A stretch of DNA of 26,540 nucleotides from a virus (IMGVR_UViG_3300037358_000043:1-26540); one strand, 5' to 3'. Counted from the first letter of the stretch, positions 1,377-26,540 are shown. Made by a program: numbers and translations. The notes: generated by a model from the letters alone, not told the origin.

Positions 1377-1540
1377 TCGAGTACCTGAACGTGCCTCGCG
1401 TCATCGGCACTGTAGTTTCTGCGGACAAGGCCACACTGATTGAGCTGCAGAGTATCTACGGCGTCAAAGACGCTTACGATCTTCTCGAGGTCATTCTCGT
1501 GGATGCGACCAATCAGCGCCGCATGACGGAGAAGCGCTGA
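1295..1540 (+). CDS. Tail assembly chaperone, frameshift extension (gpGT-like C-terminus)
   Basis: This frame overlaps the end of the short chaperone and is displaced by -1 relative to it. It is open from GTG 1295, but that codon has no ribosome binding site, so it is more likely translated as a continuation of the upstream gene after a -1 slip near 1316-1320. The fused product would be about 209 aa, with 136 residues from the first frame and 73 from this one. The part after the overlap (GLIEYLNVPRVIG, then ATLIELQSIYGVKDAYDLLE) is helical and resembles the second domain of gpGT-type chaperones. It ends in TGATG, overlapping the tape measure start by one base. An independent gene from 1295 is possible but less likely. 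Confidence 0.62.
   Translation: MDRVAHRFFTGRRSPNYGSAFSGASGLIEYLNVPRVIGTVVSADKATLIELQSIYGVKDAYDLLEVILVDATNQRRMTEKR
1314..1322 (+). other. Probable programmed -1 frameshift site
   Basis: In the chaperone frame the codons read GGT TTT TCA. The five consecutive T residues (1316-1320) let a tRNA on TTT slip back one base onto TTT again, and reading then continues as TTC ACC GGG in the frame that stays open to 1540. This is not a perfect X XXY YYZ heptamer, since TCA must be replaced by TTC in the A site. The slip point is therefore the best candidate, not a proven one. Confidence 0.5.
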
Positions 1541-3183
1541 TGGCAACGGTCATTGATAGCCTCATCGTCAAACTTGGCCTTGACCCCAGGGACTACAAGA
1601 AGGGCGCCGCTGAGTTTGAGCGTGTCACTAAGGAAACCGAGACCACTGTTCGCAAGTCCACCGAATCCATGGCAAGCGGCTTTCGCCGTGTCGCGGCCGA
1701 AGTCATCGGGCTCTTTGTCGCCGTACGATCAGTGCAGGATGTGGTGGGGTTCTTCGAGCGTGTGAATGCGAGCACGCGCCAACTCGGGCTTGACTCCAAT
1801 AACTTCGGCATCGCGGCGAACGAGCTGCGCGACTGGCAGAACGCTGCAGTGCTCGCAGGCGGCAGCGCGGAAGGGGTGACGCAGACCATTGCCAGCTTGC
1901 AGAAGTCGCTCTTTAACCTGCAGTACACCGGCGCGGTGTCTGATCAGATCATTTTCCTGCAGCGCTTGGGAGTGCAGTTTCGCTCTGCTACGGGACAGGT
2001 CGCGCCGTTCAAAAGCATCCTCATGCAGACCGCTGCCATCATGGAGAAGAACGGCAGGAGCCGTGCTGAGAACTTCCAATACCTGCAGGCGGCAGGGTTT
2101 GATGCGGGCTCGATCAATCTCATTCTAAACGGCACGAAAGCCCTTGCGGCGTTTTACGAGCAGCAGAAGAAACTCCCACAGTTGACGCAGGCTGATATTG
2201 CTGCCTCCACGCGGTTGGCGCAGGCGTGGGAGCTGCTGAAGGAAAAATTCGTCGTCGCGGCGCAAAAGCTCATCACGGATGCGGAGCCTGCGCTCACCCG
2301 GCTTTTCGCGCTCTTCCAGCGTGGTATCGACTGGATCAACGCGCATCAGGAGGATATCACTCGCTTCTTTGAAGGTTTCTTCAAGTGGTTCGAGGATACG
2401 AAGAACATAGACAGCGTGAAGGGCTTTTTCTCAGACCTCGCCACCATTGTCGGCGGTCTAGCACGTGGAATGGGATTTCTGGCGAGCGCCATTCTTTCGG
2501 TCACTGAAGCCTACGGCAAACTCGTTGCAGGCACTTCTGTGCCGCTGCCACCTCTCCTGCGCGCTGCTGTGGCGCTGTGGTCTGGCGTGATCCGTGGTGC
2601 TGGTGGTAATGCCAATCGCAATCCGTTAACTGGCGAACTCCTGAACCACAACCGCGGCAACATCAAGGCGGTGGGCGATCAGCCGCGCGATGCACGCGGC
2701 TTTCGCGTTTTTGCGAACGATCAGGAAGGCATTGCGGCGATCAATCATCAGCTCGACCTCTACGCTGCTCGTGGCATCAACACTATATCCGGCATCGTGA
2801 ATACCTACGCGCCCGCATCCGACAACAATGACGTGTCCGCATATATCAGCGCGTTGATGAGTGCGACGGGTCGCGGGGCGAATGACGTTTTAGGCGCTGC
2901 AGACCGTGCCCCCCTGATCCGAGCGATAGTGCTGCACGAGACGGGTGCGGGGCCGCAGATCACCGTGCCTAGAAGCAGCATGACGCCTCAAGCACCCGCC
3001 ACTCCCGGTCTCTATACGAGAGGCCCACCGACGAGTGCACGCGGCGGTCCTCAGACCTCAGTCGATATCGGCACCATGAACATTCAGACGCAGGCAACGG
3101 ATGCTAACGGGATCATGGCCGATGCTTGGCGCTCGGTACAGCGTAAGTTTCAGGTGGCGCAAGCCGAGCCGGGGTTGGCATGA
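1540..3183 (+). CDS. Tape measure protein with an embedded muralytic-like domain
   Basis: 547 aa, starting at ATG 1540 in a TGATG overlap with the chaperone extension. The first 300 residues are mostly helical with long Ala/Gln/Leu stretches and hydrophobic segments near 300-330, typical of tape measure proteins, which fix tail length and leave the tube during infection. Residues about 367-455 are a separate globular domain: NRGNIKAVG, GFRVFANDQEGIAAI, GINTISGIVNTYAP and NDVSAYISAL. This pattern occurs in phage structural proteins and lytic transglycosylase-like virion proteins and probably cuts or binds peptidoglycan. The C-terminus is Pro/Thr/Gly-rich. The protein is short for a tape measure, implying a tail of roughly 80 nm at the usual length per residue. 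Position after the tail chaperones supports the call. Confidence 0.82.
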   Translation: MATVIDSLIVKLGLDPRDYKKGAAEFERVTKETETTVRKSTESMASGFRRVAAEVIGLFVAVRSVQDVVGFFERVNASTRQLGLDSNNFGIAANELRDWQNAAVLAGGSAEGVTQTIASLQKSLFNLQYTGAVSDQIIFLQRLGVQFRSATGQVAPFKSILMQTAAIMEKNGRSRAENFQYLQAAGFDAGSINLILNGTKALAAFYEQQKKLPQLTQADIAASTRLAQAWELLKEKFVVAAQKLITDAEPALTRLFALFQRGIDWINAHQEDITRFFEGFFKWFEDTKNIDSVKGFFSDLATIVGGLARGMGFLASAILSVTEAYGKLVAGTSVPLPPLLRAAVALWSGVIRGAGGNANRNPLTGELLNHNRGNIKAVGDQPRDARGFRVFANDQEGIAAINHQLDLYAARGINTISGIVNTYAPASDNNDVSAYISALMSATGRGANDVLGAADRAPLIRAIVLHETGAGPQITVPRSSMTPQAPATPGLYTRGPPTSARGGPQTSVDIGTMNIQTQATDANGIMADAWRSVQRKFQVAQAEPGLA

Positions 3184-6253: not shown

Positions 6254-7512
6254 TGTCAAACGGCTACGTCAGCGCAGTTCCGGGGATCACGTGGACTTCC
6301 ACGGGTCTCGTGTTGCCGCAGGAGTCGGCAATTCTTGCGGGCGCGCTTGCGGACTTGAACGCTGCATTTGGCGGCAACCTCAACATCACCAATCTCTTCA
6401 CACCGCAGGGGCAGCTTGCAAGCTCTGCGACGGCGTGCATCGGTGCAGGCAATGACCTCTTCGCCTACTTCGTCTCGCAAATCAACCCGGACAATGCAGC
6501 GGGCTTCATTCAGGATGCCATCGCGCGCATCTACTTCCTGACCCGCAACCCCGGTGTGCCGACCGCAGTGCAGTGCCAGTGCGGCGGCCTCATGAATACG
6601 GTGATCCCTATCGGAGCACTGGCGCAGGACACGAGTGGCAACCAGTACACCTCCACGGAAGGCGGGACCATCCCTGCCTCTGGCACCATCACGTTGCCCT
6701 TTGCGAATGTGGTGAACGGTCCCATCGCCTGTCCTGCGAACACATTGACACAGATCTATCAGGCGATCACGGGGTGGGAGTCGATCAACAATTCCTCTCC
6801 CGGTATCGCCGGGGCGAATGTGGAGTCTACCGAAGCCTTTGCATATCGCCGTCAGCTCTCTGTCGCGATCAATGCGCAAGGCTCTCCCGATTCCATGCTG
6901 GGCGCGGTGTTTGCGGTGCCCGGAGTCATTGATGCCTATGTGGTGGATAACCCGCTTTCCACGGCCGTGAACTACGGAGCAAGCAATTATCCGCTCGCGC
7001 CGAACTCTGTTTATGTCGGCGTCGTTGGAGGAAGTGCACAGGCGATTGCGCAGGCCATCTGGAACAAGAAGGATCTGGGGTGCAATTACAACGGTAACAC
7101 CACGGTGCAGATTCAGGACACGGACGGATATGAGCTGCCGTATCCGACCTACAACGTCACCTTCAACATCCCGAACGCACTGCCGATCTACTTCTTGGTG
7201 ACGATTGCGAACTCCCCCTCGCTACCGTCCAACATCACGACATTGGTGCAAACCGCAATCGTGAATGCGTTTACTGGAGCTGACGGGTCTCCCAGAGCAC
7301 GCATGGGCGCGCTCATTCTGGCCTCGACCTATTACCCGTCCGTAACTGCAATCGGTTCTGTGGTCTCGGTGTACTCGATTGGGCTCACGGCGGTCGTTCC
7401 TCCGGGGGGAGGGGGGCCGGGATTGACCACCAATTATGTGAGTTACCTGCAGATCGGGATTGACGAGGAGCCCGCCTGTCTTGCTGCCAACGTCTTTGTG
7501 GTGCTCGTATGA
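6253..7512 (+). CDS. Baseplate J-like wedge protein (gp47/gp6-like)
   Basis: 419 aa, ATG 6253 sharing one base with the previous TGA. It shows baseplate J family hallmarks: an N-terminal helical region with GALADLNAAFGGNLN and PQGQLASSATACIG, a central region with GGTIPASGTITLPFANVVNGPI, the segment GANVESTEAFAYRRQLSVAIN followed by GAVFAVPGVIDAYVVDN, and a C-terminal arm. These proteins form the baseplate periphery and bind the tail fibres. Full length for the family (350-450 aa). The receptor-binding genes follow directly. Confidence 0.9.
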   Translation: MSNGYVSAVPGITWTSTGLVLPQESAILAGALADLNAAFGGNLNITNLFTPQGQLASSATACIGAGNDLFAYFVSQINPDNAAGFIQDAIARIYFLTRNPGVPTAVQCQCGGLMNTVIPIGALAQDTSGNQYTSTEGGTIPASGTITLPFANVVNGPIACPANTLTQIYQAITGWESINNSSPGIAGANVESTEAFAYRRQLSVAINAQGSPDSMLGAVFAVPGVIDAYVVDNPLSTAVNYGASNYPLAPNSVYVGVVGGSAQAIAQAIWNKKDLGCNYNGNTTVQIQDTDGYELPYPTYNVTFNIPNALPIYFLVTIANSPSLPSNITTLVQTAIVNAFTGADGSPRARMGALILASTYYPSVTAIGSVVSVYSIGLTAVVPPGGGGPGLTTNYVSYLQIGIDEEPACLAANVFVVLV

Positions 7513-10445
7513 CGCTGCCAGCCATCCACGACTATCAGTTGCTGCAGAATACAGATGGCACGTTTGACGTGCAGTATCCGAGCGGTAACAAGAACTCCTC
7601 GACGCTGCTCGTGATCAATCTCACGGCGTACAACTCAAGCCCTCCACAGGCAACCAATCTGCCGGTTGGGCAAGCGGTCAGTTTCAACTTAAGCCAGTTC
7701 CTGCTCGGTACGGACGCAGCGATTGCGACACTCGCGATCCAGACGGTGAGTGGCAACAACGCCGCATCATCCGGTTGGTCTGTGTCAGGCGGCAGCATCG
7801 TGAATGCCGCCGGTGGCGCAGTCGGCAGCGGCGTATTGCAGGTGATTGTCACTGACCCGACGAATGGCTACACGGTGTCGTTCCCGGTTCTCTCCTGGTC
7901 CATTGTCCAATCGACCAACGCGACCTCGCCCAAATTTAATTATGGCCATTACGCATGGCCGGGGGCTGCCGGTTGGGTTCAACGTGGCTCAAGTTCTGCG
8001 AGCACGCTGAGCGCGATCACGGGGTCTGCCGGGCAGAACGGCACTGCTGGGTGGAAGGGCGCCAAGCTATCACTCTATCCGGCCATGATGGTCGGTGACA
8101 CCGCTGGCACCTACACGTCAGGCTTTGCGTACGTCGATGCGATCGTGGCGGGGTTGAGTGGCTTAAGCCCACCGCAGCATTTGATCCTTCAGGGCGAGAC
8201 GCTGAGTTACTCCGCAGGCGCTCCAGATACGTCCGACTACCCGCAGTACATGATCTCAAGCGGCGTGGTGGAGACTGGCGCAGCCGGTGCCACTGCGGGA
8301 AGCAGTGTGGCTTGGTGGACGAGTGCGGGCATGGCCGACATCATCGCCATCTGGACAGCCTACGGGGCGCGGTACGATAAAAACCCGTACGTGGAGATGA
8401 TCTGCCCGCTTGAGGAATCAACCAATCCCGGTGCGGGCTTTGACTGGTCTGGCTCCGCAGCAATCACGCAACTGCAGAACATGGTCGCGGCGCTGTCTCC
8501 GGCATGGCCCAACACGCTCATCCGCATTCTCATCAACTTTACCGGAGTGGTCGATTCGTCGCTTACTGCTTTCTACGACTTCTGCAAGGGCTACCCGAAT
8601 GTTTGCATCGGCGGCCCTGACCCTGAAATACCGAATGCCGGGTACACCTACCCGCTCACCTCGTCCAATTATCCGGCCGACTATCGCACGATTCAGGGCA
8701 ACTACGTTTTTCGTGGAAACCAGAATCTTTCGAGCGGCGTCTTTGGAGTTACTAACGCGGAAGATTTCCGGCCCAACATCATCTGGGTTGGAGAAGTACA
8801 GGACCTGGGATTGCTGAGCCCTCCGACATATGAAGGCGCGCTGATCAACTCCCCTGCGCTCGTGTGTCAGTACCAGACCACTGTGATGCAAGCCCGCTAT
8901 ATGTGTTGGAACGTTGGCAGCGGGAACGTACAGCTCACCGCCAACATCAATTCTTTCATCGCCTCGCAGGCGAACGTCTTGGGTAATGGTTTGGTTACCA
9001 CGGGCACGCCGACATGGCCGACCACAGCGCCCGCGTACGATTACTACATCTCACCGGGCGGCTCGGACTCCAATGCTGGCACGCTCGCAAGCCCCTGGTC
9101 GATTACTGCATTCAACTCCAAGCAGAGCGTTTACGCGGGCAAGAGCATCGGGGTCATTGGAGATGTAGGCGGGGTGCAAACGCCCCTACAGACCGGCTCT
9201 GAAGGCTCGCTCTACTCGATGCTGGTGGCCGAGAACGGCGGTACACCGGGGTGTGCTCTGCAGGTCAATGGCGGCACTTCCGGCTCCCCCACTTACGTTG
9301 CCTCCTGTACCAGTCTAGGCGTCTATGAAGCAGGCTGGGCAATCATTGATGCCTCCAATCCTTCGGGCGGTGGTTTAGCGGGCGGTTCTGGCGGCGGCCC
9401 GAACGGCATCATCATGGGGCAAGTGTTCTACGAGACGACTGCTGCTCAGTATCGGGTTGCCAACTCCGGATATGTAACGCTCGACGGTCTCGTCGTCCGC
9501 AACGGCAATTACGCGGGTATTCAGTTCGGTGACATTCAAAGTGGAGCACTGAGCGGCGTCATCATCCAAAACTGTCAGGTCTACAACATCACCTGCTCAA
9601 CTTCGTCCGAAAACCCCGGTGGTATCTTCCTCGGCAACACGATTGGGGTGCAGGTTCTCAACTGCCTGATCTATAACTGCCAGAACTCAGGCGGCAGCTA
9701 TCCCACATGGGGCACGGGCGGCATCACGACGTACAAGGCGATCGGCCTCATCGTCACCGGCTGCACGATCTACGGCTGCGGCTACGCAATCCAGAACAAG
9801 GATGCGAATCAGTGGGGCACCTACAGCTACAACTACTTTGACTGCGGCACGCTCGGCAGCGCGACCGGCCTTGAGTACGTCAATGCAATCAAGTCGTGCG
9901 AGCCCGGCAATGGCGAAACGCTCACTCTGCACCACAACATTATCGTCGGTGACGGCTATTACGGCTACGGCGCCGATGGCACGAAGATCAGCGGCAACGC
10001 GAGCTTCTACAACAACACCTTCTACACCCCGCCCGCAGTGACGGCGGGCGCATATTGTGCGTGGTTCGATACGACGACGGGCGCCGGGCCGTTCGAGTGG
10101 TACAACAACGTTGTTTACTACAATGCCTATGGTGTCAATCAAGGTGCTGCTAGTGGCTGCCTGAGCTGGACGCCTACGAGTGGCCTCGTGGCGGCTAACG
10201 TCAACTATAATTATTACGGCACAGGGATGAACTTTGGCAACGGCTCAAGCGCCAATCAGACGCTTGCGCAGTGGCAGGCTGCTGGCTACGACGTCAATTC
10301 AATCTCTGGTGCCAGCCCTTTCAGCAGCACTCCCGCATTTAACAATCCCGCAAGTTTTGCGATCACGGGAGCGGCCACGACTGCGGGCAAAGGCGGCGCT
10401 GCCTGCGGCGCGCTCGATGGCAGCGGCACCGTGGGATGGAATTAA
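7509..10445 (+). CDS. Large host-recognition protein: glycosidase-like barrel plus beta-helix
   Basis: 978 aa, ATG 7509 in a 4-base overlap with baseplate J. Three regions can be seen. Residues 1-140 are Ig-like beta sheet (GQAVSFNLSQFLLGTD). Residues about 145-490 alternate strands and helices like a TIM barrel, with acidic residues at two strand ends: E302/E303 in MICPLEES and E429 in IIWVGEVQ, which is the spacing expected of acid/base and nucleophile in clan A glycoside hydrolases. Residues about 510-978 begin YDYYISPGGSDSNAG and continue as a right-handed beta-helix of the pectate lyase or NosD type, with Asn/Cys/Ile-rich coils. It is probably a tailspike-like fibre that binds and perhaps cuts a surface polysaccharide. 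Enzyme activity is inferred. Asn, Gly and Tyr content is higher than in the neighbouring genes. Confidence 0.66.
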   Translation: MTLPAIHDYQLLQNTDGTFDVQYPSGNKNSSTLLVINLTAYNSSPPQATNLPVGQAVSFNLSQFLLGTDAAIATLAIQTVSGNNAASSGWSVSGGSIVNAAGGAVGSGVLQVIVTDPTNGYTVSFPVLSWSIVQSTNATSPKFNYGHYAWPGAAGWVQRGSSSASTLSAITGSAGQNGTAGWKGAKLSLYPAMMVGDTAGTYTSGFAYVDAIVAGLSGLSPPQHLILQGETLSYSAGAPDTSDYPQYMISSGVVETGAAGATAGSSVAWWTSAGMADIIAIWTAYGARYDKNPYVEMICPLEESTNPGAGFDWSGSAAITQLQNMVAALSPAWPNTLIRILINFTGVVDSSLTAFYDFCKGYPNVCIGGPDPEIPNAGYTYPLTSSNYPADYRTIQGNYVFRGNQNLSSGVFGVTNAEDFRPNIIWVGEVQDLGLLSPPTYEGALINSPALVCQYQTTVMQARYMCWNVGSGNVQLTANINSFIASQANVLGNGLVTTGTPTWPTTAPAYDYYISPGGSDSNAGTLASPWSITAFNSKQSVYAGKSIGVIGDVGGVQTPLQTGSEGSLYSMLVAENGGTPGCALQVNGGTSGSPTYVASCTSLGVYEAGWAIIDASNPSGGGLAGGSGGGPNGIIMGQVFYETTAAQYRVANSGYVTLDGLVVRNGNYAGIQFGDIQSGALSGVIIQNCQVYNITCSTSSENPGGIFLGNTIGVQVLNCLIYNCQNSGGSYPTWGTGGITTYKAIGLIVTGCTIYGCGYAIQNKDANQWGTYSYNYFDCGTLGSATGLEYVNAIKSCEPGNGETLTLHHNIIVGDGYYGYGADGTKISGNASFYNNTFYTPPAVTAGAYCAWFDTTTGAGPFEWYNNVVYYNAYGVNQGAASGCLSWTPTSGLVAANVNYNYYGTGMNFGNGSSANQTLAQWQAAGYDVNSISGASPFSSTPAFNNPASFAITGAATTAGKGGAACGALDGSGTVGWN

Positions 10446-10446
10446 G

Positions 10447-12612
10447 ATGAGCCGCAGTTTCGGCAAAGTCTCGACGGACTACTTGGCAGGCACCCCGGCC
10501 CCTGCGACGGCAGTCCCCTTGAGCATGGCGGTCTGGGCGAACTTCAACAGTACATCCCTAGTCGATGCGTTCTTGTTCTCGCTCGGCGTCTCAGGCGGCG
10601 GCTCACGCACGAACGAATTTCTCTTAGGTCTCGACTACGACGGCACCGCGGCTCTAGCAGCGATGACCTACGGGCCTTCCAACGGGACGGAAGCACTCTC
10701 GGGCACGACTGTCACGGCGAGTACATGGCATCACTGTGGAGCTGCTTACAGCAGCGTCAGCGCGCGCGTGGTGGTGTTGGACGGTGTTGTGTCCAGCATC
10801 AACAACACGTCTGAAACTCCTGTTGGCATCAACGCCGTGCGCATCAGCGGGGATGCCACGAGCAGCGGATTCTATTTCGGGGGACTTGAGGCGCATCTTG
10901 CGACATGGAACCGCGCACTCACCGCGATTGAATGGACCTATCTTGCGGGCGGCGGTAATCCGCAGTCCGTTCAGGGACTTATCTATTACTGCCGTTTGAC
11001 GCAAGGCAACTCGCCCGAGACCGCAGACGTCGGCACGACCTCGCTCACCGTCACCGGCACCACGGTCTCCTCCAATAACCCGACGCTTGCGACCTGGTTC
11101 ACGGGCGCGGCGATCGCCAATCAGGTTTACACGCAGGGCACAGCGATCACACCGATTGCCGTGGGGAGTGAGTTCCAAGCCTGCGGTTCAGCCTTCACGG
11201 TCACCCTGCAGCAGCTTGGAAGTGCGGGCACGGCAACGACGGCAAGTGCAGCAGGGACCACTACCACGCAGGTTCCGCTCACGAGCGCTTCGGGCTTCTC
11301 GGCCGGAAGTTTGCTTGTCATCGGCTCGAACGCCCCCGCACTTATTCTCGCCATCTCCGGCACCACGGCCCTCATTGCTGGCGCGCAGAGCTGGTCAAAC
11401 GGGGCCACCGTCACCCCCTATGGGGTTGCAAGCCCCACGATTGCCGGCTGCTCTGTGACTTCAGGCTCATGGGGGGGCACCCCGACCGGCACGCAAGCTG
11501 CAATACCGAATTACTTCTTTCTCGCAACCAACAATACGAACAGCGCACTGGTTGCCATTTCGAATCTCTTCAGTATCGCGATCAACTCTGGTGGACCGAC
11601 GGCGCCGACTTTTGCGCAGAATCCAAGCATTGCGCAAACCCTCCCCACGGGGGTCGTGATCAATGTGCTCCCTTCTGCTGCCTGTACAGGCTATGCCGCA
11701 GCCTATCTTGCTGGCAGCACCGCACCGACCGCCGCTCAGGTGATTGCTGGTACGGGCGCGGCGGTGAGCTCTTCGGCAGCTTTGACCGGCACATCGACAG
11801 GACAGATCTCACTCACCGGCTGGGTGTTCCCCGTCTATGACGTCTATATCGTCTTGAGCAACACGAACGGCAATTCTGCGGTTTTCCCGCTGACCGGACA
11901 GTTGCGAGCGCCGCTCGCCGGTATGACCTTCCGTCCTTTCGCAAGTGTGGCCTCTGGCACCTTGTACACCGGCAATGTCTCCGTAGGCGATATCGAAGAG
12001 ACGAGCCTTGCGCTCTCGCCTTCGGGGAATCAACCGACCTATCGCACGGACGGCAATGAAGGCTATCCCGGTGCTGGAGCGACATCGCGGCAAGTGCGTA
12101 CCAGTGAGGTCTATAACTACGCTGGACAGGCGTGGTATGTGCCCACTCCGGCAATCGTGGGACCGATGTCGCTCAACGGTTTGACTGTTTACTACAACGA
12201 CACCGCGCCGAGCTTCAATGGCGGCAGTCCCTCATTACAACTCGTGCAAGGTCAGGCGGTTACTAACGGGTCCAATCTTGCGCAGTTCTTCACGAGCATC
12301 TATGGTGATCCGCTTCTTGTGACCGGCACGGGAATGCCTGCGGGCATCACGATTGTCGGTAACGTGCCGACCGGCACCACTCAAGAACTCGGCACTTTCC
12401 CCGTGACGATGACGGCAACGGATCTTGCGCTGCTGACGGGTACTGGAACTTTGACGATCACGGTTGCCTCGTCAGGGCCGCCACCGACACCGAGCCCGCC
12501 GAGCCTTGACGTGCCGAATGTGGTGGGCGAGACACAGCTTCAGGCACAAGCAACCGCTGCTGAGGCGGGCTACGAGATTGGCAACAGCACTTCGAGTTTC
12601 ACAGATGTCTGA
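10447..12612 (+). CDS. Tail fibre-like protein with LamG domain and C-terminal half PASTA motif
   Basis: 721 aa from ATG 10447, one base after the upstream stop; an upstream open frame to 10234 only overlaps the previous gene and is ignored. Residues 1-200 look like a concanavalin/LamG jelly-roll (SMAVWANFNS, TWHHCGAAYSS, WNRALTAIEWTYLAGG), a carbohydrate-binding fold. The middle is a series of Thr/Gly/Ala-rich beta domains like bacterial Ig repeats. The last 33 residues (VPNVVGETQLQAQATAAEAG onward) match the first half of a PASTA domain and stop abruptly. The gene overlaps the next by 8 bases. It lies between baseplate J and the gp48-like gene, a place where fibre genes are not usual, so it looks inserted together with the preceding gene. 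Role as adhesin is inferred. Confidence 0.62.
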   Translation: MSRSFGKVSTDYLAGTPAPATAVPLSMAVWANFNSTSLVDAFLFSLGVSGGGSRTNEFLLGLDYDGTAALAAMTYGPSNGTEALSGTTVTASTWHHCGAAYSSVSARVVVLDGVVSSINNTSETPVGINAVRISGDATSSGFYFGGLEAHLATWNRALTAIEWTYLAGGGNPQSVQGLIYYCRLTQGNSPETADVGTTSLTVTGTTVSSNNPTLATWFTGAAIANQVYTQGTAITPIAVGSEFQACGSAFTVTLQQLGSAGTATTASAAGTTTTQVPLTSASGFSAGSLLVIGSNAPALILAISGTTALIAGAQSWSNGATVTPYGVASPTIAGCSVTSGSWGGTPTGTQAAIPNYFFLATNNTNSALVAISNLFSIAINSGGPTAPTFAQNPSIAQTLPTGVVINVLPSAACTGYAAAYLAGSTAPTAAQVIAGTGAAVSSSAALTGTSTGQISLTGWVFPVYDVYIVLSNTNGNSAVFPLTGQLRAPLAGMTFRPFASVASGTLYTGNVSVGDIEETSLALSPSGNQPTYRTDGNEGYPGAGATSRQVRTSEVYNYAGQAWYVPTPAIVGPMSLNGLTVYYNDTAPSFNGGSPSLQLVQGQAVTNGSNLAQFFTSIYGDPLLVTGTGMPAGITIVGNVPTGTTQELGTFPVTMTATDLALLTGTGTLTITVASSGPPPTPSPPSLDVPNVVGETQLQAQATAAEAGYEIGNSTSSFTDV

Positions 12613-14458: not shown

Positions 14459-14638
14459 ATGTTAGGCATCGGTTTAATTCTCGTGCTCGCTGTCATCGCG
14501 GGCGGTCTTGCGATTTACGCCTTGGTGAAGCAGCCTGCTCCGCCTTCTGTGCCGCATGTTCTTCTGGCAGTTGCGGTGCTGCTGCTCGCGATTGCGGTGG
14601 GCATCGAGCATTACGCTGGCTCCGGCGTACACGGGTAA
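14459..14638 (+). CDS. Small membrane protein with two transmembrane segments
   Basis: 59 aa, ATG 14459 with a good GGAG site at about 14449. Two hydrophobic segments are visible: residues about 3-22 (IGLILVLAVIAGGLAIYAL) and 33-50 (HVLLAVAVLLLAIAVGI), joined by a short KQPAPPSVP linker, with a short GHG-type tail. Size and topology suit a class II holin-like or antiholin protein, but no family is recognised. It opens the cluster of membrane proteins that ends with the lipoprotein at 16233. Confidence 0.6.
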   Translation: MLGIGLILVLAVIAGGLAIYALVKQPAPPSVPHVLLAVAVLLLAIAVGIEHYAGSGVHG

Positions 14639-14642
14639 CGCT

Positions 14643-14816
14643 ATGTCACTCGGCACCATCCTGCTCATCGTTGTCGTAATTCTGTTGCTCGGCGGATTTA
14701 GCGGCAATTGGGGATCGCCAATCCCCTATGGGTACGGATTCGGCCATAGTGGCCTTGGCGTGTTGGGCGTCATCCTCATCGTCGTCATCCTGCTACTCGC
14801 GCTCGGGCGTCTATGA
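14643..14816 (+). CDS. DUF3309-like small membrane protein
   Basis: 57 aa from ATG 14643, four bases after the previous stop. The layout is MSLGTILLIVVVILLLGG, then a Gly/Trp/Tyr-rich turn with GNWGSPIPYGYGFGHSG, then GVLGVILIVVILLLALGRL. That is the signature of DUF3309, a proteobacterial two-pass membrane protein of unknown function. In a phage it would be a good candidate for a holin or for a captured host envelope gene. The upstream open frame to 14556 only overlaps the preceding gene. Confidence 0.72.
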   Translation: MSLGTILLIVVVILLLGGFSGNWGSPIPYGYGFGHSGLGVLGVILIVVILLLALGRL

Positions 14817-15310
14817 CCCTCGATTTGGCAGAACTGAAGTCCGTCCTTATCGCCGTGCTCACCGCTGCGCTGCTCTTTTTAGGCGCAGCGTATTGGCGTA
14901 AGTCCGGGCAACAGGACAAGGCCGACGAGGCAGAGGAGCTGCGCAAAAGGAGCGTCAGCGATCGTCTGCAAGAACTCGAAGCGAACATGCGTATGCTCGG
15001 CATCGCGGTGCAGCCGATTACCGCGGCGATGGCGGCGGTGCTTGTCAAGAGCCTGACGCACTTTCACACCCCTGAGACGGATGCACTTTTAGCCAAGGTC
15101 GGACCGCCCAATGTCCTGACCGCCATTGAGGAGGCGCACCTCGTGGAGCTCCTCGCTAATCGCACGCGGGATATGGGCTCGGAGTTTAGCGATTCCGAAC
15201 GCAACGCCGCGAAGCTCCTGCCGCTCATCATCGAGCGCACGCGGATTGAGGATAGGGAAGGCCAGCAAACTTACCTTGCCTTGGTTGGCATCCCGAAGGA
15301 GCATGAATAG
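14813..15310 (+). CDS. Membrane-anchored protein with cytoplasmic or periplasmic coiled coil
   Basis: 165 aa, ATG 14813 in a 4-base overlap. Residues 8-28 form one hydrophobic helix (SVLIAVLTAALLFLGAAYW), followed by a charged helix KADEAEELRKRSVSDRLQEL that could form a coiled coil to about residue 75, and a helical C-terminal half. One anchor plus a long polar helix is the form of inner-membrane spanin subunits and of phage holin-associated proteins, but the length is above Rz-type spanins and no Pro-rich tail is present. Function unassigned. Confidence 0.6.
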   Translation: MTLDLAELKSVLIAVLTAALLFLGAAYWRKSGQQDKADEAEELRKRSVSDRLQELEANMRMLGIAVQPITAAMAAVLVKSLTHFHTPETDALLAKVGPPNVLTAIEEAHLVELLANRTRDMGSEFSDSERNAAKLLPLIIERTRIEDREGQQTYLALVGIPKEHE

Positions 15311-15393
15311 TGGGGGTCATCATTGCGGTCATCGTCGTCGTGGTCCTGATTATTGTGTACCTCATCATCACGCAACAGCCGCCGCCGCACTGA
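15310..15393 (+). CDS. Tiny single-span membrane peptide
   Basis: 27 aa starting at GTG 15310, whose first base is the last base of the upstream TAG. It is a single hydrophobic helix MGVIIAVIVVVVLIIVYL followed by the polar tail ITQQPPPH. There is no separate ribosome binding site, so reading would depend on re-initiation from the previous gene. Lysis regions contain such mini-proteins, for example in small phages. I include it because the stop-start overlap matches the other genes in this operon; it remains a modest-confidence call. Confidence 0.42.
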   Translation: MGVIIAVIVVVVLIIVYLIITQQPPPH

Positions 15394-15394
15394 A

Positions 15395-15853
15395 ATGAAC
15401 CTCATCCTCACGCGCGACCCGCCATGGCCGACCTGCACGCTCGGAATGCTCACCGTTGAGGATCTTGAGCTCAACACGATGGAGCGGCCATGGATTGGCG
15501 ATCCTGAATGCATCGGGGGGGCCGCGTGCATTTCCTGCGTACCGCCCGGCGTCTACCAGCTTGCGCTGCACGACACGCCCGAACATCCCAGAACGTGGGC
15601 GCTCGTCAATCCGGCGTTAGGCGTCTATCACGAGCCGGGCGACATTCCTGCAGGCACGACAGGTCGCACAGCCTGCCTCATTCATCCGGGCAACTACCCG
15701 ACCGACGTGGAAGGGTGCATCGCTCCCGGCCTGTCACGCGCGCTGAACGGTGCCTTGTGGATGGTCACCGACAGTCAGGAAGCGATGATGAAGCTGCAAA
15801 CCGTCGTGCCGTGGGTTGAAGGGCATACGCTCACGATCGAGGACGGTGAATGA
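15395..15853 (+). CDS. DUF5675-like protein with H-GN...GC motif
   Basis: 152 aa from ATG 15395, one base after the tiny peptide ends. The sequence has LGMLTVEDLELNTMERPW, CISCVPPGVYQL and the motif CLIHPGNYPTDVEGCIAPG, which I recognise as DUF5675. The spacing of His, Gly-Asn and Gly-Cys recalls L,D-transpeptidase active sites, so a role on peptidoglycan is possible, but this is inference. The frame ends GAATGA, giving a 4-base overlap with the holin-like gene. It is one of two enzyme candidates in the lysis region. Confidence 0.68.
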   Translation: MNLILTRDPPWPTCTLGMLTVEDLELNTMERPWIGDPECIGGAACISCVPPGVYQLALHDTPEHPRTWALVNPALGVYHEPGDIPAGTTGRTACLIHPGNYPTDVEGCIAPGLSRALNGALWMVTDSQEAMMKLQTVVPWVEGHTLTIEDGE

Positions 15854-16236
15854 CGCAAGCTGGTGCTGTAAAACCCGATGTGGATTTGCTGCTGGCCAGA
15901 GCACAGGTATGGATTGCGATTTATTTCATCACTGGGATCTTCGGAATTGTGTTCGCGCTGATGTTCCTGCATACCACAATGAGCCCGATCGTCGTGACGA
16001 TCCTCACCAGCACGTTGACGGCGCTCGTCACGATTCTCACCCTGCAGTCCAACTTTTTCTACGCGCGCAGTCGGCCAGCCGCTTTGCCCGATCCCACGAC
16101 GACCACGACCACCACCACCACGACCACGGCGCCGACTGCCCCGGCCGATGGGGCCTCTCTTGTGCCGCCTCTCACCACCGAGACTTCTGTTAAAACCCAG
16201 GTCCCCGCAGATTCACCCCAAGGAAAGCCCGCATGA
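15850..16236 (+). CDS. Holin-like membrane protein with poly-threonine tail
   Basis: 128 aa, ATG 15850. Residues about 19-42 (AQVWIAIYFITGIFGIVFAL) and 45-66 (PIVVTILTSTLTALVTILTL) form two transmembrane helices, and then a soluble tail starts at SNFFYARSRPAALPDP. It contains ten or more consecutive threonines at about residues 83-93, followed by an Ala/Pro/Thr-rich end. Two helices with a long tail suit a holin or holin accessory protein. The tract is coded by ACN codons that are not identical (mixture of ACG and ACC), which limits slippage. Position just before a lipoprotein supports a lysis role. Confidence 0.58.
   Translation: MTQAGAVKPDVDLLLARAQVWIAIYFITGIFGIVFALMFLHTTMSPIVVTILTSTLTALVTILTLQSNFFYARSRPAALPDPTTTTTTTTTTTAPTAPADGASLVPPLTTETSVKTQVPADSPQGKPA
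16095..16131 (+). repeat. ACG/ACC trinucleotide run coding poly-Thr
   Basis: A run of about eleven ACN codons inside the holin-like gene, starting at the CCC ACG ACG block. The codons alternate between ACG and ACC, so the DNA is not a pure microsatellite. Variation in length is plausible. Confidence 0.7.
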
Positions 16237-16607
16237 AATACCTCATCGTTTTATCCCTGTTTGCACTCTCAGCCTGTGCCGAGCTACCCGTCGCTCTGCA
16301 AACCTGTACGGCCGTCGTCAATGACGCGGCTGCGGCCAACAACGTGCTCGTGACGACGACGACTGCGGCAGTCACCAATGGTGCGCTGACCGCCGCACAA
16401 GCCTCCAAGGTCGCCCAGTACAGCGCTGATGCCAATGCGATCATCTTGACCGCGCAAGCACTGTGTGCGGCTGGGGAAACGGCTTCCGCCAAGACAGTCG
16501 TGGCGCCAGTGGCGACGAGCGTCAAGATCATGAAATCCTGCACGACGCTTAAAGGCACAGCGGTTGATCAGTGTCTGGCATCTTCACCGAAGCCGAAAAC
16601 CTCATGA
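16233..16607 (+). CDS. Small secreted lipoprotein
   Basis: 124 aa, ATG 16233 in a 4-base overlap. The N-terminus MKYLIVLSLFALSACAELP is a lipoprotein signal peptide with lipobox L-S-A-C and cysteine at residue 15. The mature part is Ala/Thr/Val-rich, mostly helical, with cysteines at about residues 25, 76, 103 and 114. In a phage lysis region a short lipoprotein may be an outer-membrane spanin or an envelope (superinfection) protein. It lacks the Pro-rich segment typical of Rz1, so the spanin role is only a guess. Confidence 0.66.
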   Translation: MKYLIVLSLFALSACAELPVALQTCTAVVNDAAAANNVLVTTTTAAVTNGALTAAQASKVAQYSADANAIILTAQALCAAGETASAKTVVAPVATSVKIMKSCTTLKGTAVDQCLASSPKPKTS

Positions 16608-16804
16608 CGCCAGAAGCCATTCTCGCGCTCGTGCAGCTTGCTCTGCAGCTTGAGCCTGTGGTACTGCCAATGGTCAAGGGACTGGTGGAACACGCACAGG
16701 ATGCGGTTGCCGGAGCAGTCGTTACCGAGGCGGATGTGGAGGCAACCTTGAGTCAGTACGGCACCAACATGGCCGCATTGCAGGCGGCGATCGCCAAGGC
16801 ATGA
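16604..16804 (+). CDS. Small Ala/Leu-rich helical protein
   Basis: 66 aa, ATG 16604 in an ATGA overlap with the lipoprotein stop. An in-frame GTG at 16571 would extend it by 11 residues, but the overlap rule of this operon favours 16604. Residues 1-30 (LALVQLALQLEPVVLPMVKGL) form an amphipathic or weakly hydrophobic helix, and the rest is a helical domain ending QAAIAKA. It is not recognised; no signal peptide. Confidence 0.6.
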   Translation: MTPEAILALVQLALQLEPVVLPMVKGLVEHAQDAVAGAVVTEADVEATLSQYGTNMAALQAAIAKA

Positions 16805-17121
16805 GCCTCATGATCTTCCTCGGCGTGTTCTTCGTGCTGCCGCTGGGCCTTGCACGCTGGAATGCTTATTGCCTGCGCTATGCGATGGGCATTGATCTGT
16901 GGCTCTCACTCGTGACGAATGGTAGGCCGGGGGAAACTCTGTCGGGGCGGTGCGGGACGGCTTACCTGCAGGGCAAGACCAAGGGCAAGTTCTGGTGCCC
17001 GATCATCGATGCCATCATGGGAAGTCAGACGCATTGCGTGGATGCCATACAGGGTGATCGTGCGCGGGCAGCAACGGTGCTCAGCGACGACCAACCCTAT
17101 GCCACCAGGATAGCCACATGA
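16801..17121 (+). CDS. Conserved phage membrane protein
   Basis: 106 aa, ATG 16801 in a 4-base overlap. One N-terminal hydrophobic helix (LMIFLGVFFVLPLGLARW) is followed by RYAMGIDLWLSLVTNGRPGETLSGRCGTA and a segment with Cys and His (KFWCPIID, QTHCVDAI). The pattern NGRPGETLSGRCGTA is one I have seen in small phage proteins of unknown function with the same order of N-terminal membrane helix and polar domain. It is not assignable to an activity. It ends ATGA with the cysteine peptidase. Confidence 0.6.
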   Translation: MSLMIFLGVFFVLPLGLARWNAYCLRYAMGIDLWLSLVTNGRPGETLSGRCGTAYLQGKTKGKFWCPIIDAIMGSQTHCVDAIQGDRARAATVLSDDQPYATRIAT

Positions 17122-17879
17122 AATTCGGCCGCAAGCCGCGCAAGCACGATAAGCGCGTACCGCTGATGTCCGCTCTCACGGCGGGGCAGGTCTTGTCATT
17201 GCCGCCCGTTGCGGTCAACTACACGACGGGAATACCGGCTAACCTTGGAATGATGCTGAATGATCAGCTGAATGACTGTTGCTGCGCCGCTGTAGGCCAT
17301 GCCCTTGAGGTATGGAGTTTTAATGCCGCAGGGCAGATGCTCACCGATCCAAACAATGACGTGCAGGCCGTGTACGAGCGCTCCTGCGGATACACGGCGG
17401 GGAATGCCGCTACCGATCAGGGCTGCATCCTGCAGGATGTTCTGGGCTACTGGGTGAAGCAGGGCGTGCCTACCCCATCAGGCACCAACAAGCTTGCGGC
17501 GTTCGTGGAGATTGATCCGGATGACGGGGAGGCGATCAGGCGGGCAATAGACGACTGCGGCTGCGTCATCATCGGCTTCAACGTTCCCTATTACCTGGCG
17601 ACCTATCTCACCAACGCGGGCGCGCTGTGGGACTACTGGCCAAAAGCGAATAACAGCATCGTCGGCGGGCATGCCGTCATTCTTGCGGGATACCGCGGCA
17701 AGATATTCACGGCGATTTCGTGGGGCGCCCTTTATTCGGTCTCGTGGCGCTTCCTCACCCACTTCATGGACGAGTGTTACGCGCTCGCGGATGCCAGTTT
17801 CTTAAAGTCCACCGGCAACACCCCATCCGGACTAACACTCGCGCAGCTCGAGGCCGCTATGCAGGGATTAAAGCAATGA
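17118..17879 (+). CDS. Papain-like cysteine peptidase-fold protein
   Basis: 253 aa, ATG 17118 in a 4-base overlap. The N-terminus is basic (MKFGRKPRKHDKR) without a signal peptide. NDQLNDCCCAAVGHALEVW at residues 48-66 gives Cys54-56, the position of the nucleophile in papain-like folds, preceded by Asn-Asp and followed by a helix. GGHAVILAGY contains His185, and ISWG follows 13-17 residues later, the usual order Cys, His, then Asn/Trp-Gly. The central region has a helix-rich lobe. The nucleophile is one of three cysteines and which is used cannot be decided. In this position it could be an endolysin-like peptidase or a host-directed protease. Confidence 0.66.
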   Translation: MKFGRKPRKHDKRVPLMSALTAGQVLSLPPVAVNYTTGIPANLGMMLNDQLNDCCCAAVGHALEVWSFNAAGQMLTDPNNDVQAVYERSCGYTAGNAATDQGCILQDVLGYWVKQGVPTPSGTNKLAAFVEIDPDDGEAIRRAIDDCGCVIIGFNVPYYLATYLTNAGALWDYWPKANNSIVGGHAVILAGYRGKIFTAISWGALYSVSWRFLTHFMDECYALADASFLKSTGNTPSGLTLAQLEAAMQGLKQ

Positions 17880-18151
17880 AAGCCACCCTCGACACCAGCG
17901 GCCCCACGCCCAGAGTTACCCTGACATGGGTGCCGTCCAAGACCAATGTGGGCGGCTCGCCTATCACAGTTCCGCTAACCTTCAATCTCTACCGCGCGCA
18001 GCTCAACAAAACCCGCAGCGGCATGACAGGCGATACGGCCGTCGTCACCTTCGATCTTCCGACTGGCAGTACGCAGTTTTTCGCCATCACAGAGATCGAG
18101 AACGGCGTGGAAAGCGGGTTGAGCAATATCGAGCAGGTGACTATTCCGTAG
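17876..18151 (+). CDS. Fibronectin type III-like small protein
   Basis: 91 aa from ATG 17876, in an ATGA overlap. The sequence VTLTWVPSKTNVGGSPI, LTFNLYRAQ, FAITEIENGVESGLSNIEQV matches a fibronectin type III fold, with the conserved W, a Tyr on strand C and the E-S-G-L-SN end. It has no signal peptide. It is the last gene of the plus-strand operon and overlaps the convergent minus gene by 11 bases. Such lone FN3 domains occur on phage surfaces, where they help adhesion; whether it is on the virion is unknown. Confidence 0.68.
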   Translation: MKATLDTSGPTPRVTLTWVPSKTNVGGSPITVPLTFNLYRAQLNKTRSGMTGDTAVVTFDLPTGSTQFFAITEIENGVESGLSNIEQVTIP

Positions 18152-18396: not shown

Positions 18397-19632
18397 TCAA
18401 CCTTTGACACAGATCCCCTGTTTCAGCTCGGCTACGATTTCGACCAGATCGCTCTGATTGTCCATGACTTCCTGAATCGACTTGTACGCGCCGGGGATTT
18501 CGTCGATCACGTCCGCATCCTTTCGGCACTCGACGCCAGCGGTCTGGGTCGCCAAGTCCTCGATGGTGAATTGCTTTTTGGCTGCGCCCCTGCTCATCTT
18601 GCGGCCTGCGCCGTGGGAGCACGAACAGAAAGACTCGGGATTGCCCTTGCCGCGCACGATAAAGCTCCGTGCGCCCATGCTGCCGGGGATGATGCCCATA
18701 TCGCCCAATCGGGCGCGCACGGCTCCCTTGCGCGTTACGTAGACGTTCTGGCCATAATGGTTTTCCACCGAGACATAGTTGTGGTGGCAATTCACTGCGG
18801 TTGAGGAAGTTGCCAGCCGGTCAGCGGGAAGGCCAAAGGCTTTCTCCACCGCTCCGATAGCCGCCCGCATCATGAGCAAGCGATTCGTCAGCGCGAAGTC
18901 CTGCGCCCACGACACGGCTTTCCAGTACAGGCCGAAATACTCGGAACCTTCCGGCAGATAGGCCAGATCCGGGTCCGCAAGCTTGATGTGCCAGCGCTGC
19001 ATTTCCTCCTTGGCCTTCATGATGAAGTAGGTTCCAAGGCGATTGCCGATGCCGCGCGAGCCTGAGTGCAGCATCAGCCACACCCCGTTCTCCTTGTCGG
19101 TGCAAAGCTCGATGAAGTGATTGCCGGTGCCGAGCGTTCCCAGGTGGCGCTCCGCGTTAACGTGGCCGCGCAGGGCCGCAGGCTGCTTCTCTGCGATCTC
19201 GCGGAATCGCTTGTCCTCGGCCAGATGCTTGAAGTGGATGCCGATATCCGCAGGCACGTCATGCCAGGCGCCCCGGTCGTTCGGGCCACCGTTATCGGTA
19301 CGCCCATGTGGGATAGCCGCCTCGATGGCGCTGCGCGCGTCCACGAGGCTGTCCGGTAGCTGGTCGGCGGTCATGTTGAGTTTCTGCGCCACCATCCCGC
19401 AGCCGATATCGACGCCCACGGCAGCAGGCACGATGGCGCGAATAGTCGGTATCACACTGCCCACGGTGGACCCCATACCCCAATGCACGTCAGGCATCAC
19501 GGCGACGTGCTTATGGATGAACGGCAGCGACGACAGGTTGTGAAGCTGCTGGAGTGCCGACGCCTCAATGTCGTTCGTCCAGATCTTCACGGGCGCGCCG
19601 TGCTCATCTTTGAATGTTTGTATCACAGGCAT
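18397..19632 (-). CDS. rtcB: RNA ligase RtcB
   Basis: 411 aa, about the length of bacterial RtcB (408 in E. coli). Starts at ATG 19632 behind GAGGGGAAG. RtcB joins 2',3'-cyclic phosphate (or 3'-phosphate) and 5'-OH RNA ends using GTP and Mn2+. The metal and guanylylation residues are all present: Asp75 and Cys78 in GVDIGCGM, His172 in GTGNHFIE, His189 in LHSGSRG, His283/284 in NCHHNYV, and the GMP-accepting His340 in CSHGAGRKMSR. Two HSGSRG and SMGARSFIV loops complete the fold. It is therefore probably active. In phages it may repair tRNAs or mRNA cut by host defence nucleases. A 9-base gap separates it from the tiny gene upstream. Confidence 0.96.
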   Translation of the reverse strand: MPVIQTFKDEHGAPVKIWTNDIEASALQQLHNLSSLPFIHKHVAVMPDVHWGMGSTVGSVIPTIRAIVPAAVGVDIGCGMVAQKLNMTADQLPDSLVDARSAIEAAIPHGRTDNGGPNDRGAWHDVPADIGIHFKHLAEDKRFREIAEKQPAALRGHVNAERHLGTLGTGNHFIELCTDKENGVWLMLHSGSRGIGNRLGTYFIMKAKEEMQRWHIKLADPDLAYLPEGSEYFGLYWKAVSWAQDFALTNRLLMMRAAIGAVEKAFGLPADRLATSSTAVNCHHNYVSVENHYGQNVYVTRKGAVRARLGDMGIIPGSMGARSFIVRGKGNPESFCSCSHGAGRKMSRGAAKKQFTIEDLATQTAGVECRKDADVIDEIPGAYKSIQEVMDNQSDLVEIVAELKQGICVKG

Positions 19633-24518: not shown

Positions 24519-24735
24519 AGCAGCAGCGGGAGGAATCCTCGGCGGCACGGTCATACAGTTGTTTGCGCAGACGCTTAATCTCAGCGTCTTGCCACCGAAT
24601 CAATTGAGCACTCGCCCGATCTTCAAGCTCGTGGTGGCGACGATATTTAGCATCCAGCCATAACGCGCAATCCTCGGGAGACATTGGGCCGTTCTCTCCA
24701 ATGAACTGCTCGTCGGTAGGGATGTTGTCTGTCAC
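24511..24735 (-). CDS. Small helical protein
   Basis: 74 aa from ATG 24735, 4-base overlap with the pentapeptide gene. PMSPEDCALWLDAKYRRHHE and QDAEIKRLRKQLYDRAAED are helical and the latter could form a coiled coil. The C-terminus SSRCCYD is Cys-rich. No match known to me. Confidence 0.6.
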   Translation of the reverse strand: MTDNIPTDEQFIGENGPMSPEDCALWLDAKYRRHHELEDRASAQLIRWQDAEIKRLRKQLYDRAAEDSSRCCYD

Positions 24736-25400
24736 GGCGCGGCCTGCAATGCCGCCTGCGCGCGTATGTCCTCAAGCGCGCGCTCGGTGCTGGCGTAGAA
24801 ATGCGGCACCCGCCCCGTGGAAGCACGATAAATCATGCTGCCCGCGCGCGCTGGACCATACTTGTCCTGTAGGGCTTTACCTTTCGGGCCTGCCTCGTGG
24901 ATTGCCCAGCCCGCGCGGCAGTGCGTTGTCCCGCACCATTCGTTCTTCGGGCCATGCCACGAGCCCATATCGAGCACGCCGCTGCCTCCTTCGATGACCG
25001 CCAGAATCTTGGCGTCGAGGTTCTCGACCACCGGTACATCGGGGTTGCGCTCGCGGAAGCGCAGCGCGCGTAGTCGCTGGCGCTCTTTACGATCAGTTGG
25101 CTCTGTCGCGTCGTTGCTATCGCCGGCATTGTAGGCACCCGCGAGGTAGGCACCCTCGAGGTCGGCATCCTCGAGGTTGGCACCCGCGAGGTTGGCATGC
25201 GCGAGGTTGGCACCCGCGAGGTTGGCATGCGCGAGGTTGGCATGCGCGAGGTTGGCACCCGCGAGGTAGGCACGCGCTTTAAAAGCCGCCTTGATTGCGT
25301 AGCCGAGTTGTCGCGCGGAGGATTGCTTACTGATAGATTTGGGCAGCTCGCACGAGAACAATACAGCACCGGTAAAGCGGTTCTTGATTTCAAGATTCAT
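24732..25400 (-). CDS. Pentapeptide-repeat protein with conserved C-terminal domain
   Basis: 222 aa, ATG 25400 behind GGAG. Residues 1-40 are a short beta/helix unit (NRFTGAVLFSCELPKS). Residues about 42-91 hold ten pentapeptides A-(N/Y/D)-L-x-x of the right-handed quadrilateral helix type, mostly ANLAG and ANLAH. Then an Arg-rich linker (KERQRLRALRFRERNPD) leads to a C-terminal domain with KILAVIEGGSGVLDMGSWHG, EWCGTTHCRAGWAIHEAG and HFYASTERALEDIR, which I know from phage and bacterial proteins of unknown function often joined to pentapeptides. DNA-mimic activity against gyrase is possible for such folds but unproven. Confidence 0.78.
   Translation of the reverse strand: MNLEIKNRFTGAVLFSCELPKSISKQSSARQLGYAIKAAFKARAYLAGANLAHANLAHANLAGANLAHANLAGANLEDADLEGAYLAGAYNAGDSNDATEPTDRKERQRLRALRFRERNPDVPVVENLDAKILAVIEGGSGVLDMGSWHGPKNEWCGTTHCRAGWAIHEAGPKGKALQDKYGPARAGSMIYRASTGRVPHFYASTERALEDIRAQAALQAAP
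25133..25272 (-). repeat. 15-bp in-frame minisatellite coding pentapeptides
   Basis: About nine tandem 15-bp units, core GAGGTTGGCA(C/T)(C/G)C on the plus strand, coding ANLAG/ANLAH on the minus strand. Nearly identical units at 25177-25260 indicate recent duplication. Confidence 0.86.
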
Positions 25401-25630: not shown

Positions 25631-26540
25631 TCACGATTCCACCTGCGGCCGCCACTCGGTGCTCTTCATGCCAAACGACCAAGCAACCGCCGCTGTTGCT
25701 GTTTTCATGTCGGGCGGCACTCGAAGATGGTAGGTCTTGAAAGACTGATCCGGCTCGGGTGTTGAATTGATCACTTCGAGCATGACGATCGGGGAATCCC
25801 CGGGCCGATCCGCCCTCCAGAGCTTGCCGCGCTTGTCCTCGTGGATGAGAGTTGCGCCAATCTCGCGCGCGTAGCGGGCAAAACCGAAGCGCTGAATCAT
25901 GATGCGGCGGATCTCAACATTCTCCTCGCGCTGGATTTGCTGCGCGGTGAGGCTCTCCGGGCGCATCACAATCTGTTCGGTGACTTGCACCCCATGCCAG
26001 TAGTAAAGCTCCCACCCATCGCGCCAGCGGTGCGAAGGGCCATCAGAGCAATGCGGGCGGTTGCGGTCATCAAGAGATAGGCGCTCGGGGAAATCCGAGA
26101 CCATGCAGAATTTTTCGTGCACCAGGCGAAAGCCGCCGTTCTTCGCGCATCGCTCCCACGCTTCATAAGCGGCGTGGCACGGGAAGCGAAGTCCAAGGAT
26201 GTCGCGTGCCGCGGTGAGATAGCAGTCCCACCAGGCCCACATATTTCCGCCTTGGTAGTAGTTCGCCCAATTGGCTGCGCAGGCGAGTCCGAGCGCGGCG
26301 TGCGGACCTAGGATCTCAAAGGCGATGCGCGCGAAAAGATTCGCATCCCAGGTCGCATCCCAGGTCGCATCCCTGGTCGCATCCCTGGTCGCAGCCCAGG
26401 TCGCAGCCTCGGTCGCAGCCTCGGTCGCATCCCAGGTCGCAGCCCTGGTCACAGCCCTGGTCGCATCCCAGGTCACAGCCCAGGTCGCATCCTCGGTCGC
26501 AGCCTCGGTCGCAGCCTCGGTCGCAGCCTCGGTCGCAGCC
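25631..26540 (-). CDS. DUF6745-like protein with tetrapeptide-repeat N-terminus, 5' end outside window
   Basis: At least 303 codons; the frame is open to the right edge, so the start lies beyond the window (an internal GTG at 26476 lies within the repeats). The N-terminal part is 17 or more tetrapeptides of the form (A/D)-A-T-(W/E/R). After DANLFARIAFEILG comes a globular domain with FCMVSDFPERLSLDDRNRPH, CSDGPSHRWRDGWELYYWHG, REENVEIRRIMIQRFGFARY and STPEPDQSFKTYHLRVPP, the pattern of DUF6745, found in phages and bacteria, often behind A/W/D repeats. The C-terminus VAWSFGMKSTEWRP is typical. No function is known. Confidence 0.74.
   Translation of the reverse strand, partial: AATEAATEAATEAATEDATWAVTWDATRAVTRAATWDATEAATEAATWAATRDATRDATWDATWDANLFARIAFEILGPHAALGLACAANWANYYQGGNMWAWWDCYLTAARDILGLRFPCHAAYEAWERCAKNGGFRLVHEKFCMVSDFPERLSLDDRNRPHCSDGPSHRWRDGWELYYWHGVQVTEQIVMRPESLTAQQIQREENVEIRRIMIQRFGFARYAREIGATLIHEDKRGKLWRADRPGDSPIVMLEVINSTPEPDQSFKTYHLRVPPDMKTATAAVAWSFGMKSTEWRPQVES
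26341..26540 (-). repeat. 12-bp tandem minisatellite within DUF6745-like gene
   Basis: About 17 units of 12 bp, core GGTCGCA(T/G)CC(C/T), running to the edge of the window. Each unit encodes one tetrapeptide, and variants differ at one or two positions (W/R/E codons). It probably continues further, so its length cannot be given. Confidence 0.86.

Follow-up and report, generated by a model that had tools for sequence, protein, structure and literature searches.

Genes of the region at 14459-18151

The window analyzed here is a single virus record of 26,540 b (IMGVR_UViG_3300037358_000043), which is used as a whole but represents a partial genome. Its genes are those of a contractile-tailed phage, in which the tape measure, baseplate hub, Baseplate_J, DUF2612 and tail-fibre genes are followed by an operon at 14459-18151. 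This operon probably serves host lysis, and its DUF5675 protein, encoded at 15395-15853, is very probably the endolysin. The genes of the operon are tightly packed on the + strand, with stop/start overlaps nearly throughout. Downstream of it lie opposite-strand genes, first a small open reading frame (ORF) and then the RtcB RNA ligase gene (18397-19632, -; Pfam E 6e-126), which adjoins the operon. The tape measure gene and the genes of the operon are as follows (TM, transmembrane; aa, amino acids).

1540-3183, +, tape measure protein; residues ~369-472 form a virion-borne lysozyme-like domain (phrog_2276, phrog_873)
14459-14638, +, 59-aa protein with two predicted TM helices, holin candidate (hydropathy; no family match)
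14643-14816, +, DUF3309 protein of 57 aa with two predicted TM helices, holin candidate (Pfam 33.3 bits, cut-off 22.3)
14813-15310, +, 165-aa protein with N-terminal TM segment and coil (weak phrog_736 match, E 7e-4)
15310-15393, +, 27-aa single-TM peptide with GTG start (sequence, hydropathy)
15395-15853, +, DUF5675 protein, proposed endolysin, His97...Cys108, with neither TM segment nor signal peptide (PF18925)
15850-16236, +, 128-aa protein with two predicted TM helices and a Thr/Pro-rich tail, holin candidate (no family match)
16233-16607, +, 124-aa lipoprotein with LSAC lipobox, possible outer-membrane lysis partner (sequence; weak phrog_1119 match, E 0.004)
16571-16804, +, small protein of 66-77 aa, start uncertain (16571 GTG or 16604 ATG; ORF call)
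16801-17121, +, 106-aa protein with N-terminal TM segment, phrog_3342 of unknown function (E 1.5e-9)
17118-17879, +, cysteine-peptidase-like protein, accessory (phrog_19005; Cys54, His185 and Trp202 invariant)
17876-18151, +, 91-aa fibronectin-type-III-like protein (sequence; the ORF at 17720-18151 matches 15865-16368 of the related locus L232)

Gene calls, Pfam matches and hydropathy agree with a sequence-only reading of this region that membrane proteins, a lipoprotein, a DUF5675 protein and a peptidase-like protein are all present, and they add the 27-aa TM peptide, which its list did not contain. The same reading reported no recognisable endolysin in the region, and the Pfam lysin families (GH24, GH108, GH19, Amidase_2, M15 and SLT) indeed match none of the operon proteins. 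It also proposed a search of the rest of the genome. Within the window this search likewise gives no match to these families in the other main ORFs, but the record is partial and the tape measure protein holds a lysozyme-like domain. Rfam and tRNA searches find nothing. The phrog_736 family, to which the 165-aa protein is weakly similar, corresponds to DUF2730, the family of the Mu gp25 releasin, and the DUF2730 protein of Vibrio phage martha 12B12 matches it with E 2.6e-30.

Lysin slots of relatives and Mu-like phages

Ten loci obtained by a viral scan with the Baseplate_J gene of the window were compared. Past the tail fibre, GH108 lysins are encoded in L232 and L234 (77 and 67 bits) and a Hydrolase_2 cell-wall hydrolase in L235 (35 bits). 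In L242, a contig of a Burkholderiaceae metagenome-assembled genome, the same slot holds a GH19 lysin together with an Rz-like gene, and in Pseudomonas phage Orisa03 it holds an annotated lysozyme with two spanins. In L239 the enzyme is GH19-like (E 1.6e-25 against the PWe1 endolysin), and its gene lies further downstream. In L240, a DUF5675 protein is encoded past the tail fibre, as in the window. Because the lysins of the relatives are encoded past the tail fibre, this position represents the lysis slot, and DUF5675 is present there in place of the enzyme. Thus, the DUF5675 gene of the window sits in a lysis cassette, in the endolysin slot of its relatives.

The tape measure protein of the window is matched by phrog_873 over residues 369-472. 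Its lysozyme-like domain is of the NRGNI type and is common to L232, L234 and L235, while it is not detected in L240. It is extremely unlikely that this C-terminal domain does the job at release. L232, L234 and L235 have the domain plus their own separate endolysins, so that it replaces no lysin, and L240 has DUF5675 without a match to the domain. Moreover, tape-measure lysozyme-like domains serve entry.

The cysteine-peptidase-like protein, the second enzyme candidate of the sequence-only reading, has no Pfam match. Across four homologues, Cys54, His185 and Trp202 are invariant and arranged in papain-like order, and an AlphaFold model built from four sequences has a predicted local distance difference test score (pLDDT) of 40, too low for a fold search. 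This order of residues and the location in the same operon as DUF5675 would be consistent with the peptidase being the endolysin and DUF5675 the accessory protein. However, its homologues adjoin Amidase_2 (L007), M15_4/VanY (L146) and Hydrolase_2 (L235) lysins, no homologue is found in L240, where DUF5675 occupies the slot, and the Mu-like and microvirus contexts examined yielded none. Because three phages have a homologue with a canonical lysin next to it, the protein appears to accompany endolysins and not to replace them. As a lysin it is therefore rejected; judged from its gene neighbourhoods, it is probably an accessory protein, and the reversed assignment of roles is very unlikely.

Mu-like phages permit a quantitative comparison of DUF5675 with canonical lysins. 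The Mu lysis cassette comprises endolysin gp22, the gp23/23.1 spanins and the DUF2730 releasin gp25. In Mu itself gp22 comes after the late activator C; in Mu-like relatives DUF5675 occupies the gp22 position, immediately after C in ZX4290 and with one secreted-protein gene in between in martha 12B12. A DUF2730-like TM protein is present alongside DUF5675 in these phages and, weakly, in the window too. Eighty loci fetched with the martha terminase were combined with the DUF5675 loci, the interval from C to TerL was readable in 74 of them, and the lysin families were confirmed on representatives. GH108 is found in 58 intervals, DUF5675 in 8, phage lysozyme in 6 and an SLT-like lysin in 1; 1 interval has none, and two lysins never occur together. 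Thus, exactly one lysin is present in 73 of the 74 intervals. The eight DUF5675 loci represent six distinct contigs. Over the distinct contigs, exclusion has p ~4e-8 by counting alone, a value that is optimistic given the relatedness of the loci. An identical TM holin-like neighbour is kept in all eight DUF5675 loci.

Whole-record scans of 51 DUF5675 phage records, mostly of 28-60 kb, agree with this replacement. Amidase_2, GH108, M15_4 and M15_3 give no match in these records, while known positives are detected in the Amidase_2, GH108 and M15_4 scans. Phage_lysozyme and SLT give one match each; the ORFs concerned are 871 and 798 aa long and, because of this length, probably encode virion proteins. 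These scans and the Mu-like intervals indicate that DUF5675 replaces canonical lysins instead of accompanying them.

An ordinary endolysin could nevertheless lie in the part of the phage genome that is missing, with DUF5675 acting as an accessory wall-modifying enzyme. The record is partial, and some large phages have DUF5675 at a distance from lysis modules, which would allow this. However, the lysin of the relatives occupies the very slot where the window has DUF5675, the 51 other records are likewise without common lysins, and exclusion is strict in the Mu-like phages, so that this arrangement is very unlikely.

Elsewhere in the window, at 7509-12612, a large beta-helix ORF and a TTG-started Laminin_G_3 ORF overlap by ~210 b, and a frameshift or a late start may account for their junction. 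Near the end of the record, a pentapeptide-repeat protein and a DUF6745 protein (24732-25400 and 25631-26476, -) have repeated N-terminal ATWDAT-like motifs.

The DUF5675 family and L,D-transpeptidases

The DUF5675 protein of the window matches PF18925 with 65.1 bits, compared with a gathering cut-off of 26.7. A viral scan with its sequence alone finds no relatives, and an alignment of 13 members is too diverse as a scan query. Among 72 diverse members, Glu30, Ser47, Cys48, Pro50, Gly52, Tyr54, Arg91, His97, Asn100, Gly107, Cys108 and Gly112 are invariant. The distance from His97 to Cys108 is 11 residues in 68 of these proteins and 12 in 4. The predicted model of the window protein has a pLDDT of 91.4 and a predicted template modelling score (pTM) of 0.87. 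DUF5675 might be a non-enzymatic protein, binding to the wall or residing in the envelope and merely travelling with lysis genes, and the lack of a significant match to any known enzyme fold would fit such a role. However, it replaces enzymes one-for-one, and His, Gly-Cys and Asn are invariant across all 72 proteins, which makes a non-enzymatic role highly improbable.

Only one of the 72 proteins has a hydrophobic N-terminus. Because such N-termini are almost absent, a holin is needed. A single 336-aa protein of L097 (6001-7008) carries DUF5675 (107 bits) and, after it, GTA_holin_3TM (38 bits). Both scores exceed the cut-off, and the protein is probably a natural endolysin-holin fusion. TM segments are present in 79 of 194 DUF5675 neighbours, compared with 50 of 546 background genes, and the recognised holins beside DUF5675 are GTA_holin_3TM (5), phrog_3427 (6) and LydA-type (1). 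Thus, DUF5675 is coupled to holins by fusion and by enrichment of TM neighbours, with no export signal of its own. DUF5675 is also encoded by three single-stranded DNA microviruses of ~5 kb (L002, 3009-3419; L003, 7-384; L072, 3384-3752), where it may be a lysin taken over from tailed phages. Other microviruses encode an M15 peptidase, for which a lysis role was suggested by Roux et al. 2012 (PMC3394797).

The description of DUF5675 as transpeptidase-like in the sequence-only reading draws on the logic of the motif, and profile and fold searches give no significant kinship. DUF5675 resembles the YkuD L,D-transpeptidases in the order His...(Ser/Thr-His)-Gly-Cys-hydrophobic. It differs in spacing: the YkuD signature, H-X14-17-[S/T]HGC-hydrophobic, places His and Cys ~16-19 residues apart, compared with 11-12 in DUF5675, and the exact [ST]HGC is present in 9 of the 72 proteins. 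Sequence searches of the Protein Data Bank (PDB) with DUF5675 alone and with the 13- and 72-member profiles give chance matches only, without any L,D-transpeptidase. Alignment by hhalign with E. coli LdtB/C/E has a non-significant probability of 0.9%, although in the short stretch aligned the His residues coincide, as do the Cys residues. Foldseek of the window model against the PDB gives no significant match, in a search that could miss a loop-altered YkuD derivative. Membership of the YkuD family is accordingly not supported by signature, profile similarity or fold. Because no significant profile or fold match is obtained, kinship with YkuD is not shown, while a YkuD-like mode of working is plausible.

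In BFVD, the fold of the window model matches other DUF5675 proteins and a phage protein named L,D-carboxypeptidase/transpeptidase (A0A7M1RYB0, uncultured phage cr116_1; Foldseek E 3.4e-6). This name is a predicted annotation, and the identity is 19%. The L,D-transpeptidase fold is known to be adaptable to cleavage. Tlde1, a YkuD-derived effector of the type VI secretion system, has turned it into a killing L,D-carboxypeptidase (PMC9638812), and enzymes with this fold are able to act as endopeptidases, as reported for LDTBcn (PMC10864386). The odds that DUF5675 uses L,D-type thiol chemistry are about even.

In the literature searched, two papers mention DUF5675, and neither gives it a function. 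The proposal of the sequence-only reading that the enzyme is a new type of phage lysin has a precedent, however. Chamblee et al. 2022 (PMC9239132), in one sentence of the relevant passage that is a prediction for one phage, suggest by synteny that the endolysin of martha 12B12 is a soluble protein that HHpred finds weakly similar to L,D-transpeptidase. The family name is absent from that passage; read from synteny, the protein is VPCG_00031, the lysin-slot gene product, which belongs to DUF5675 like the window protein. Martha 12B12 is Mu-like whereas the phage of the window is not, and the two proteins are ~35% identical. According to the same paper, Mu gp22 is a muramidase with a signal-anchor-release (SAR) domain, whereas DUF5675 has no N-terminal hydrophobic segment.

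Proposed lysis pathway and its implications

These results suggest that the genes at 14459-18151 form the lysis operon of a phage with a contractile tail, and that DUF5675 is its endolysin (probability about 0.85). Comparison of sequences establishes the position of DUF5675, the one-for-one replacement of canonical lysins, the link to holins, the conservation of His and Cys and the lack of an export signal. Of the two enzymes considered by the sequence-only reading, DUF5675 is thus favoured by slot replacement, exclusion of canonical lysins, the holin fusion and carriage by microviruses, whereas the cysteine peptidase is disfavoured by the canonical lysins beside its homologues.

From these features we infer that DUF5675 cuts peptidoglycan, and its chemistry, the bond that is cut and the identity of the holin are deduced likewise. 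DUF5675 would gather in the cytoplasm as a soluble leaderless enzyme, a holin would give it access to the periplasm, and it would cut the peptidoglycan there. The best holin candidates are the two-TM proteins encoded at 14459, 14643 and 15850. In the likeliest chemistry, which is thiol-based, Cys108, activated by His97, would attack the peptide stem after an L-centre, either at mDAP3-D-Ala4 (mDAP, meso-diaminopimelic acid) or at L-Ala1-D-Glu2, and in such an L,D-endopeptidase action water would replace the acceptor stem. The outer membrane may be the task of the lipoprotein and a TM protein.

Several points weigh against this interpretation. The endolysin role rests on comparison and the enzyme activity is predicted; YkuD kinship is unsupported by profile or fold. 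The window record is partial, so that a lysin in its missing part is possible. Completeness is not established for the 51 records; their scans left out Amidase_3, CHAP, M23 and GH25, and the GH19 scan provides no evidence since its control was silent. Related loci are statistically non-independent. In Vibrio phage 355E48.1 (L015, 5992-6390; 133 kb), DUF5675 is encoded near ribonucleotide reductase and PhoH with no obvious lysis module nearby, and in RP31 it lies within a giant protein. Not every DUF5675 member need be an endolysin, because some are located outside lysis modules or inside large proteins.

Beyond the 2022 proposal, this analysis extends the argument from one phage to the family, and adds quantitative exclusion, the holin fusion, the microviruses and the lineage of the window, while a rival peptidase is removed. 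In its widest form, for which the case is evenly balanced, DUF5675 would be a widespread endolysin class of tailed phages of Gram-negative hosts and some microviruses, found once as a holin-endolysin polypeptide. Its active site would be an L,D-specific cysteine site that either converged on that of the L,D-transpeptidases or descends remotely from it. The hundreds of viral members of this uncharacterised family would then be assigned a function, and an explanation would be at hand for many phages recorded as having no endolysin. The holin fusion and the microvirus copies would offer simple systems for studying lysis. If the chemistry is of the L,D type, DUF5675 would form a class of phage lysin that cuts peptidoglycan in an unusual way, from which new enzymes against Gram-negative bacteria could be drawn.

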